From contig JAGXSZ010000005.1 of NCBI GenBank assembly GCA_018333515.1, positions 1-64,000 on the forward strand: DNA of 64,000 nucleotides. The letters are read 5' to 3'. A model generated the notes under the pieces. That model saw nothing but the letters and a program-made list of their open reading frames with translations, did not search any database and was not told where the DNA came from. Source of the stretch: Actinomycetota bacterium (GTDB lineage Bacteria > Actinomycetota > Aquicultoria > Aquicultorales > Aquicultoraceae). This document shows positions 1,718-18,426 of the stretch, one piece after another (within the stretch, counting starts at the first letter, position 1; each line of letters starts with the position of its first letter). Both the position numbers and the translations under genes were made by a program.

Positions 1718-2509
1718 ATGTTGGACGACAGCGTAATGGCCAAGTACGAGCATGTTAAAGCGACCATAAAGATGCTTGAAAGCGTCGTCGTAGCGTTTTC
1801 GAGCGGAATAGACAGCACGCTCGTTCTAAAAGCCGCGCTCGAGGTCTTGCCGCGAGACAAGGTCCTCGCGGTCACGGCGGACTCGCCCATCTTCCCCCGA
1901 GAGGAGCTGGAAGCGGCCGCCGTCATCGCTGACGCGCTCGGAGCCGAGCATCTCTTCGTCGAGAGCGGCGAGACCCGGTTGCCGCAATTCGCCGAAAACA
2001 CGTCGGAACGATGCTATCTCTGTAAGCGAAATTTCTACTCGATCTTCGCGTCCACGGCCGTCGAGCGAGGATTCAATGCGGTCGTCGACGGGACCAATCT
2101 CGACGACAAAACGGATGACCGACCATGGCTGAGAATCCTCGATGAACTCGGAATAGTCTCCCCCCTATTCGAAGCGCGACTTAGTAAACGAGAGGTCATC
2201 GAATTGAGCGACACATTCGGCCTGGAGATAAATAAGCCGCTCTATCTCTGTCTCGCCTCCCGCTTCTCGACCGGCATCCCCATCGATATAGATAAGATGG
2301 AGCAGCTATACGAGGTCGAACGATGGCTGCTGCGGCAGGGGGTCTCAGAGACCTTCATCCACCACCACCACGAGGATGTCGCGCGGGTCATCGTCTTTCC
2401 CGAGAACATCGCGCGCGTCGCCGAGCCCGTTGTCCGCGATGAACTGGTCGCCCGCTTGAAGTCATTGGGCTTTAAGCATGTCACACTCGACCTCGAGGGC
2501 AAATTTTAA
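1718..2509 (+). CDS. larE: LarE-family ATP-dependent sulfur transferase (nickel-pincer cofactor synthesis)
   Basis: LarE adenylates and sulfurises the pyridinium carboxylate precursor of the nickel-pincer nucleotide used by lactate racemase and related enzymes. The 263-residue protein has a PP-loop, SSGIDST, at residues 28-34 and the family block RCYLCK. Cys99, Cys102 and Cys178 (in LCLASR) are present. Three cysteines are the pattern reported for [4Fe-4S]-type LarE proteins, unlike the single sacrificial cysteine of the Lactobacillus enzyme. I chose ATG 1718 because AGGAG precedes it; a longer frame opens at 1637. No larA, larB or larC is nearby. Confidence 0.85.
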   Translation: MLDDSVMAKYEHVKATIKMLESVVVAFSSGIDSTLVLKAALEVLPRDKVLAVTADSPIFPREELEAAAVIADALGAEHLFVESGETRLPQFAENTSERCYLCKRNFYSIFASTAVERGFNAVVDGTNLDDKTDDRPWLRILDELGIVSPLFEARLSKREVIELSDTFGLEINKPLYLCLASRFSTGIPIDIDKMEQLYEVERWLLRQGVSETFIHHHHEDVARVIVFPENIARVAEPVVRDELVARLKSLGFKHVTLDLEGKF

Positions 2510-14916: not shown

Positions 14917-15330
14917 TGGAACCCCCTGTATTTACCCTGTATTTACCCGATATTACCCCTGTATTACCCCTATGTTTATGTCCTTTACTCGTTTCAAGCC
15001 ACGCCCCCGCGCGCTAAGTGCCGCTGCGGGGTCTCGATCGAGGTCGTCGACGTTAGCACGCTTCAAGCCATGGCCGCAACGCGAAGCGCTACACGGATTC
15101 GTAGCTCGGCCCTTTAGGGCTGACCGTCCCCGCCTCCGGCCTCCGTCCACGCGCCTCCGGCCTTACGTCCACGCGCCCCCGGCGCGAAGGGCGCGCGCGT
15201 AGCTGTAGTTAACCGTAGTAGCCGTAACAACGTCCCCTACGTTCAGTTACCCGTTTCCTTAAGTGTGAAAACGGGTAACTGTATTGGTTATAACGGCGTA
15301 TCGCCGCTGTTCTTCCGCATTTAACGCAAA
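14917..15330. other. 414-bp rpsB-tsf spacer with repeats and a hairpin
   Basis: No gene is supported here. The first 60 bp hold short direct repeats of a TGTATTTACCC-like unit (14930-14980). A REP-like unit lies at 15101-15123. GC-rich direct repeats of about 22 bp (CGCCTCCGGCC followed by CCACG) occur at about 15133-15182. A 13-bp perfect hairpin with left arm CAGTTACCCGTTT (15244-15256) and right arm 15269-15281 lies just past the rpsB stop. No T-tract follows the hairpin on the minus strand, so it may tune rpsB versus tsf levels rather than end transcription. Confidence 0.6.
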
Positions 15331-16369: not shown

Positions 16370-16403
16370 GCTTTTTGCGGACCGCGTCTGCCCGGCTTAG
16401 TAT

Positions 16404-16444
16404 CCGCACGGTTGCATGGATAGGCCTCCCATGCAACCGTGCGG
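16404..16444. repeat. 16-bp perfect hairpin between the PepSY gene and rpsB
   Basis: CCGCACGGTTGCATGG (16404-16419) is followed after nine bases by its exact reverse complement (16429-16444). The stem is long and GC-rich, 31 bp past the PepSY gene's stop. Neither strand has a T-run next to it. It could block 3' decay or end transcription with help from a factor, or it could be a palindromic repeat. Confidence 0.6.
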
Positions 16445-16475
16445 CAAGACTCTTTACCCCGATGGTTTTTCCGCG

Positions 16476-17399
16476 CTAGCGCGTCTCGTCACCGCCGAGC
16501 TTCTCTCCCGTTGCGGCATCGATCCAAATCGAGCCGTGGCCTTCTTCGGTCTTCTTAAAATCGATTACCCAGGCAAGCCTCGCCTCGACCGTGTCCAGAA
16601 CAAAGTTCTCTGCTGTCCAGCGATAGTTTGGGTTGACGATCATCAGCACGGCATTCTCCGGCCTTACATCGAAGCCGTTCTTCGCACTGATAGTCGAAGC
16701 GAGTTGTAACGCACGTTCCTTACTCACATTTATGGCAAACGTCGAAGGTTCGACCGATTCGTATCTTTTGTTGCTGCCTATTATCTCACCCTTGTATCCG
16801 TCTGCGATGATTAGGAACCAGTCGTTGTAATATTTATAGCCGCGGCTCTCCCTTGCCCACTTAAACATCCATTGAACTGTGCCCTCCTCCTCGCTGTCTA
16901 TTTGTCTATACGATGTCGCCTCGGTCGGCTTGGAATCCGGAACAGCTATTCCGAAGCTTTTTCCTCGGGCTGTGGCGCGCTTTAGCACTTCTTCTTCGGG
17001 CAGCAGCGGGTGTTTGGCTTGTAAGGATGCCAATGCATTGTCCATAGCGGTCCCGCTTAATAAACCTATCAGCTTGCCGGTGGCTCCGTCTATCTCGACC
17101 TCATCTTTGTCGTAATCTTTCTTCCCAGAGCGCGCCACCCAGATAGGTGCTACGAGCGAACCCTTCTGCGTGAGTTCAATCTCTTCAACAACGGCGCCGG
17201 GGCGCATCTTTTGAAATACCTGCTTTGCGATGTTGGTCGCCGCTTCCTTATCGACTTTCGGCGTCTTCGTCGTCGGCTTGAAAAGAAAGTACGGCTCGTC
17301 GGCCTCTGCGATAAGTACGGATAGCGATACCGACGCTAAAACAAGAACTACCGCTAAAACCAGCAGCCGCTTTTTACCAAAAACTCTCTTAACGTTCAT
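16476..17399 (-). CDS. Membrane-anchored or secreted PepSY-domain protein
   Basis: The 307-residue protein has an N-terminal basic stretch and one hydrophobic segment (about residues 10-31) that serves as a signal peptide or anchor. The rest contains PepSY-like repeats: each ends in a strand-turn signature such as [12 protein letters not shown] (about residues 100-111) and [13 protein letters not shown] near the C-terminus. PepSY domains are known as propeptides or inhibitors of secreted proteases. The gene follows the caspase-like gene by 28 bp on the same strand, so it may restrain that protein. This pairing is inference. Confidence 0.7.
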
Positions 17400-17427
17400 T
17401 TAGCTCTCTTCCTTTCGCTTACGCTTA

Positions 17428-18048
17428 TTAGTAGCGCCAATTGAGGCTGCCGAACCCGCGCGCGTTCGTTACGCCGGATAATCTACTAGCTTCAGACATG
17501 GAGTAGCTTATCGTATTCTTGTTTGCGACCGAACTCCAAAACGTCATGGTGTAATCGCAGTACTGCTGATTATCAGACGAACAACCATTCCATCCCACAT
17601 ACGCATGGATAGAGCCGTCGCCGGTAAATATGCCCCAAGCCCGCGACATTTTGTCGTCATTGCTTGAGAAGCATGCGTCTATGAAGACCAGCTTCTTCCA
17701 ATCACTTGCTCTTGCGGTATTGATATCCGCGGTCGTGATTTCCTTACCATTAGTAACTAACGTACCCGTACCATCAAATATCGACCGCGTGCTAAGGCTA
17801 CCGTGCGCTAGAGCATACACGCCGTTGCCGTATTTCGCGTTGGCCAAGAATGTGCTTTTGGTAAAATTGTCGCCATAATAGCTGGAATACGTAAGTCCCA
17901 GTTTAGCCCACGCGTCATTTGCAGCCTTTAGAGTGTAAGGCGCAATAAAAAACTTAGCAGCGTAATCATACCCATACGATGCAAACGCGGTACTCGGCAA
18001 GAGCATTGATATGATTACAACCATGCAAACAAAAGCCGTTTTTCTCAT
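17428..18048 (-). CDS. Secreted caspase-like (clan CD) cysteine peptidase-type protein
   Basis: The 206-residue protein has a clear signal peptide with a predicted cut after AFA (residue 23). The mature part shows the two hallmarks of clan CD peptidases: a His-Gly after a hydrophobic strand (YALAHGS, His82) and an Asp-Ala-Cys after the next strand (VFIDACFSS, Cys126). AYVGWNG follows, as in gingipain/CHAT-like folds. The protein is little more than the catalytic core. Its start has a good ribosome site (AGGAGG within 18050-18060). It is probably co-transcribed with the PepSY gene. Its substrate is unknown, and it could be a pseudoenzyme. Confidence 0.65.
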   Translation of the reverse strand: MRKTAFVCMVVIISMLLPSTAFASYGYDYAAKFFIAPYTLKAANDAWAKLGLTYSSYYGDNFTKSTFLANAKYGNGVYALAHGSLSTRSIFDGTGTLVTNGKEITTADINTARASDWKKLVFIDACFSSNDDKMSRAWGIFTGDGSIHAYVGWNGCSSDNQQYCDYTMTFWSSVANKNTISYSMSEASRLSGVTNARGFGSLNWRY

Positions 18049-18232
18049 TTTACCTCCTTTTGCGCTCAGTGAAACGATCTGATGTCAAGCAGTTTCTTCG
18101 ACTTTATGCGTATGGTTACACAAGCAGTTGCCGGCACAGCAAAATAGCCGGACACTCCCAAGAATAGCATTCATGCGTAAGGGCGGTTAGGCATAATAGC
18201 ACGCAGGATTTGCGATTTACACGATGAACGAT

Positions 18233-18395
18233 AGCTTCAGGGATTTTGCAACTCAAAATAGCAACCTTGCAACCGGGGATTTTAATTGACGTAGCTCAGC
18301 CCTTTAGGGCTGATAACGGCCATGCATATGCGATTATCAGGGCTAAAGCCCTGAGCTACGGGATATAAAATATGAGTTGCAAAATCTCTGAGCTT
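18233..18395. mobile_element. MITE-like element with nested REP pair and 5-bp target duplication
   Basis: Terminal inverted repeats of 18 bp with one mismatch (CAGGGATTTTGCAACTCA at 18238-18255; complement at 18373-18390) are flanked by AGCTT on both sides (18233-18237 and 18391-18395). Inside, two REP-like units of about 26 bp face each other at 18291-18316 and 18334-18359. No coding sequence is present. The structure fits a non-autonomous transposable element inserted upstream of the caspase-like gene and just after whiG; no matching transposase is in the window. Confidence 0.7.
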
Positions 18396-18426
18396 AATAT
18401 TGTACCATTATGTGCGCGAAGAAATG

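Follow-up and report, generated by a model that had tools for sequence, protein, structure and literature searches.

An exported protein and an anchored PepSY protein encoded side by side

The 64-kb stretch of DNA analysed here (hereafter, the window) carries, between whiG and rpsB, two small genes on the minus strand, which we call A and B; the start of B lies 28 bp past the stop of A (Table 1). Gene A opens with a predicted signal peptide (MRKTAFVCMVVIISMLLPSTAFA/S, with the slash at the predicted cleavage site) and is preceded by a strong Shine-Dalgarno sequence (AAAAGGAGG). Removal of the signal would leave a mature protein of ~183 aa that has no propeptide of its own. The gene is present as a single copy in the source genome (2.33-Mb assembly).

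The original prediction had described A as a signal-peptide protein with His82 within the motif AHGS and Cys126 within FIDACFSS, followed after 28 bp by the gene for an exported or anchored PepSY protein. Both descriptions were borne out: the open reading frame of A is present with these residues in these contexts, and the product of B has a hydrophobic N-terminus and matches the PepSY family PF03413 at 27.9 bits, against a Pfam cut-off of 24.

Table 1 Features of the A–B locus and of gene C. Positions refer to the window unless another locus is named.
Feature	Position	Strand	Basis or conservation
Extra ~2.0 kb between whiG and rpsB, absent at that site in six related genomes	16388..18425	.	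whiG-rpsB interval compared by tblastn and blastn
Gene A, exported, likely clan-CD-like (caspase/legumain/CHAT-type) protein, 206 aa	17428..18048	(-)	ORF; family alignments
A, Sec signal peptide (predicted), residues 1-23, cleaved at AFA/S	17980..18048	(-)	Read from the sequence; AxA-type motif kept in L010, L011 and L038
A, His82, putative catalytic His (AHGS)	17803..17805	(-)	Kept in L010, L012 and L038; Lys in L011
A, Cys126, putative catalytic Cys (FIDAC)	17671..17673	(-)	Kept in 6/6 sequences, L037 fragment included
Gene B, 307 aa, anchored in the membrane, three PepSY repeats	16476..17399	(-)	PF03413; AF2 pLDDT 67; best PDB fold match YpeB 5boi
B, hydrophobic N-terminal anchor or signal, ~residues 11-33	17301..17369	(-)	Sequence; model helix 4-30
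B, PepSY repeat 1, residues 48-112	17064..17258	(-)	Pfam; modelled as one helix plus four strands
B, PepSY repeat 2, residues 135-215	16755..16997	(-)	Modelled with the same elements as repeat 1
B, PepSY repeat 3, residues 227-305	16485..16721	(-)	Model; alignment; PF03413 in the L038 homologue (residues 208-284)
Gene C	L010 3018-3497; L037 145-639; L016 about 1854-2252		Conserved after B

Conserved motifs of A point to clan CD

Like the clan CD peptidases (C13 legumain, C14 caspase/metacaspase and CHAT), A possesses an HG motif and a hydrophobic-DAC motif in that order; unlike them, it falls below every family cut-off, is small and exported, and is paired with a PepSY protein. In an alignment of the A family, every one of the six sequences has the Cys; five reach the position of the His, and four of them keep it, the exception being L011, whose ORF is otherwise intact. 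The most distant full-length member, that of L038, retains the canonical SGHG/DSC.

Searches of Pfam and NCBIfam returned no curated family match for gene A of the window, and the clan CD families of NCBIfam did not match the A family. Two relatives each produced a single Pfam match, both sub-threshold: A of L012 aligned to Peptidase_C13 (legumain; residues 65-110, from THG to NACYSG) at 13.6 bits against a cut-off of 22.8, and A of L038 to Peptidase_C14 (caspase; residues 85-135, from SGHG to DSCES) at 11.9 bits against 21.4. The A family profile additionally matched a CHAT-domain protein, itself recognised by PF12770 above cut-off (E 2.7e-9), at 19.7 bits and with His and Cys both in register; the highest score among 2000 shuffles was 7.5 bits. 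Since fragments of ribonucleotide reductase scored as high against the same profile (19-20 bits, with the motifs not covered), the CHAT match is by itself not decisive. Yet the matches to three distinct clan CD families all fall on one and the same His-Cys pair, with the HG and hydrophobic-x-(A/S)-C motifs in clan CD order, which makes chance unlikely although each match is weak alone.

Of the minimal clan CD core that had been proposed for A, the order and register of the motifs thus stood, and the Pfam search placed C13 and C14 on the expected His and Cys; all matches stayed sub-threshold, none reaching a curated clan CD cut-off, and the L011 sequence departs from the dyad. On these sequence grounds, we consider a clan CD-type core in A likely.

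An AF2 model of A, computed from four sequences, attained a pLDDT of 41.8 and hence no usable confidence, and Foldseek found no significant match to it in the PDB. Legumain appeared in the Foldseek list (TM 0.31), which we discounted as noise. Separately, ~residues 134-190 of A, after the Cys, resemble residues 461-511 of class Ib ribonucleotide reductase (NrdE; E 4e-4 to 6e-3, PDB). As only this post-Cys stretch is covered, we rejected a kinship with ribonucleotide reductase; the resemblance probably reflects chance or convergence.

Gene B is YpeB-like in fold and layout

Structure prediction, likewise suggested at the outset, was more informative for B than for A (pLDDT of 67 as opposed to 42). 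The B model, of moderate confidence, consists of an N-terminal helix and three successive repeats, each made up of a helix and four strands, and it supports a PepSY/YpeB-like protein. Its best Foldseek match was the C-terminal domain of YpeB (5boi; E 2.7e-8, probability 1.00), with vibriolysin propeptide complexes in second place and YpmB thereafter. PF03413 was also found in B of L010, L012, L037 and L038, and the most conserved motifs in the B alignment—NPNYRWT, RLAW and WIDAxTGExLGGDET—all fall within repeat 3.

While YpeB-like in fold and layout, B is no YpeB orthologue, given that the long pre-PepSY region of YpeB (residues 21-202, PMC6660665) is absent, the PepSY portion of B following closely on the anchor from residue 48, and that sleB is no neighbour: in the window, B is flanked by A, rpsB and whiG. 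Relatives of B also match DUF4901 below cut-off (E 2e-4 and 3e-5), a likeness to YcdB/YcdC-type proteins (DUF4901, PepSY). The latter, however, are far larger than B, and no A-like gene occurred in the loci scanned.

The two genes recur together in two phyla

Among 60 relatives and the window's own genome, three carry A, and these three are also the ones that carry B (the chance of both genes picking the same three genomes among 60 relatives being ~3e-5), with adjacency seen in G003 (L012) and G006 (L010). The named relatives carrying the pair are MAGs labelled Actinomycetota; judging by their names, the 'Yes' bins among the relatives appear to derive from a study of the Yessentuki mineral-water aquifer (which has a bin Yes75-02; PMC11708057). 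With each species represented by a single genome, a scan returned an extra pair in a Thermoanaerobacteraceae MAG (L011), from whose name its phylum label, Bacillota, is taken, and in which B runs off the contig end. L010, L011 and L012 are small, low-coverage MAG contigs.

When 399 Bacillota genomes were searched with the A profile (E values of 6e-98 in G397, 1.5e-27 in G528 and 4.5e-11 in G782), G528 (L037) and G782 (L038) came to light, and in both of these B adjoins A. The reciprocal search of the same genomes with the B profile yielded strong matches (E at most 1e-40) in G397, G528 and G782, exactly the A-holders; three identical picks of three from 399 genomes carry a chance of ~1e-7. The remaining B-profile matches, at E 7e-12 and above, were weak; most were located in proteins of ~700-820 aa, and no A-like gene adjoined them in the loci scanned. 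Within the phylum of the window, a profile search of 397 genomes detected no further case. Phages, plasmids and viral contigs searched for the pair gave no match, nor did Rfam, nor PADLOC models run against six of the proteins.

Altogether, every one of the six A-holding genomes (the window, G003/L012, G006/L010, L011, L037 and L038) has B next to A, the check proposed for co-occurrence having returned five further genomes and two phyla. In L038, the order is reversed, B preceding A with 18 bp between them, implying that the pair does not descend from one inherited arrangement. On the strength of this reversal and the reciprocal test, we rejected the idea that the two are accidental neighbours. 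We found no match to a described system, in agreement with the original prediction, and, judging by titles and abstracts, the open-access papers searched included none linking PepSY to a prokaryotic caspase-like protein. The co-occurrence of A and B in distant bacteria suggests an undescribed exported enzyme with a dedicated controller.

The pair is mobile, and some copies have decayed

In six related genomes (G001, G002, G003, G004, G007 and G009), whiG and rpsB are direct neighbours, leaving the site of the pair empty. The pair of G003 lies at a different place, on a contig that also bears genes read as thiamine synthesis. WhiG of this genome is 96% identical to that of the window, as opposed to 36% for A and 25% for B, and A of L011, from the other phylum, is 43% identical to A of the window. 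From the empty sites and these identities, it follows that the pair has been horizontally exchanged or replaced, not simply inherited. No transposase or integrase was seen beside it in the window.

Three loci hold damaged copies. A is frameshifted near its start in L012 and lacks its 5' half in L037, with B whole in both. In a seventh genome, G469, an ORF of 134 aa (L016) fuses the A signal peptide and the first mature residues (SYAYNYG) to the last 57 residues of B, and its B part scores 73 bits against the B profile. This ORF is a deletion relic of an A–B locus that has lost most of both genes; we rejected its reading as a mere signal-peptide match. The survival of B upon decay of A fits schemes in which A without B would be harmful, although the cases are few and in L016 most of both genes is gone.

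A third gene, C, follows B in L010, L037 and L016 and encodes a small exported protein of 132-164 aa, lipoprotein-like in L037. Its copies share 25-34% identity by BLASTP (E 4e-9 to 8e-20), and C overlaps the end of B in L010 and L037. It is absent from the window and from beside B in L012, and Pfam and NCBIfam gave no useful family match for it.

B may tether and restrain A, as proposed for YpeB and SleB

Discussion of caspase relatives in prokaryotes has mostly centred on stress or death factors inside the cell, and PepSY partners have three known roles: inhibitor, folding aid, and anchor or stabiliser. The layout of A and B parallels that of SleB-YpeB in spore-forming Bacillota, where tandem genes likewise encode a Sec-exported enzyme followed by an anchored protein with C-terminal PepSY repeats; A, however, is caspase-like, whereas SleB is a peptidoglycan lytic enzyme. 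SleB and YpeB are encoded in a conserved operon and need each other for stability, and the anchored YpeB, situated mostly outside the membrane, is proposed to keep SleB inactive until YpeB is degraded (PMC13393411, PMC6660665). Anchored PepSY partners of exported enzymes are already known, and what is new here is a clan-CD-like protein in the enzyme's place.

Because the layout is the same, the most likely arrangement in our view is that B restrains and stabilises A. By analogy with SleB-YpeB, we moderately favour a dedicated, exchanged pair in which the anchored B would tether, stabilise and restrain the exported A. In such a scheme, A would be exported by Sec and fold as a minimal clan CD cysteine-peptidase domain, and B, with its N-terminus in the membrane, would display its three PepSY repeats outside and bind A there, keeping it stable and in check until B is removed or displaced and A is freed. 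A cell-envelope protein would be the likeliest substrate. The export signals, the motifs, the PepSY/YpeB-like fold of B, the co-occurrence and adjacency across two phyla and the mobility of the pair are observed here, whereas the fold of A, its proteolytic activity, its contact with B and its restraint by B are inferences.

The strict adjacency and co-occurrence of A and B are also what would be expected of a toxin-immunity pair, in which the exported protease A would harm neighbour cells or its own envelope and the anchored B would confer immunity. Such a role is possible but, in our view, unlikely. The pair is mobile, patchy and fast-diverging, as the congener with its near-identical WhiG and dissimilar A and B illustrates; relatives have empty whiG-rpsB sites, and B stays open where A is frameshifted (L012) or 5' truncated (L037). 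Against this, A bears a plain Sec signal and no dedicated delivery domain, PADLOC did not match, both genes are cut in L016, and the pseudogenes are few and might be MAG errors. With the same low probability, the pair could be a compact mobile effector module, comprising a caspase-like protease directed against competitors or the cell's own envelope, a PepSY inhibitor that serves as immunity protein and, sometimes, a third exported protein.

That B acts in trans as a folding aid, in effect a detached propeptide, with A an ordinary exported protease working on the envelope or on peptides, we regard as rather doubtful. The M4 proteases have PepSY as their propeptide domain, a vibriolysin propeptide was the second fold match of B, and A lacks a propeptide; as in the M4 enzymes, a PepSY domain is linked with a putative exported protease. 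The M4 propeptides, though, lie in cis with a zinc protease, whereas B is encoded apart from the cysteine-type A, is anchored, has three repeats and is more YpeB-like than propeptide-like. Assistance in folding and restraint by B are, moreover, not mutually exclusive. Least probable, indeed improbable, is that A uses a clan CD fold for binding as a pseudo-enzyme, the pair forming a surface sensor or adhesion complex devoid of proteolysis: L011 has its Lys in an otherwise intact ORF, and pseudo-orthocaspases exist (PMC6426788), but Cys is kept in 6/6 and His in 4/5 sequences, including the distant L038 with SGHG/DSC.

If B does restrain A, YpeB-type control, in which an anchored PepSY protein holds an exported enzyme, would serve beyond spore-cortex lysis, and a small exported caspase-like protein that moves between phyla with its PepSY partner would extend clan CD to the cell surface. 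With only two genes, the pair lends itself to direct tests of whether B acts as an inhibitor, a folding aid or an anchor.

Further features around the pair and in related loci

Upstream of A, at 18237-18391, the window contains a palindromic repeat (CGTAGCTCAGnnCTTTA) that recurs at 1612-1628 and 15100-15116. With four matches in 64 kb, compared to 0.08 expected, it is a REP-like element, and part of it is also found within the rpsB-tsf interval of relatives. Short 11-nt tandem repeats occupy positions 14923-14978 of the window, between rpsB and tsf. In G003, the contig that bears the pair (C103) also encodes, at ~6944-7595 of L055, a small exported protein with the zinc-protease motif HEMGHWGVLDH. 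Finally, L051 (877-1935 and 2151-3326) encodes a CHAT-domain protein with a coiled-coil-like N-terminus, flanked by the end of a helicase-like gene on one side and by a large gene on the other; this locus is possibly a defence island.
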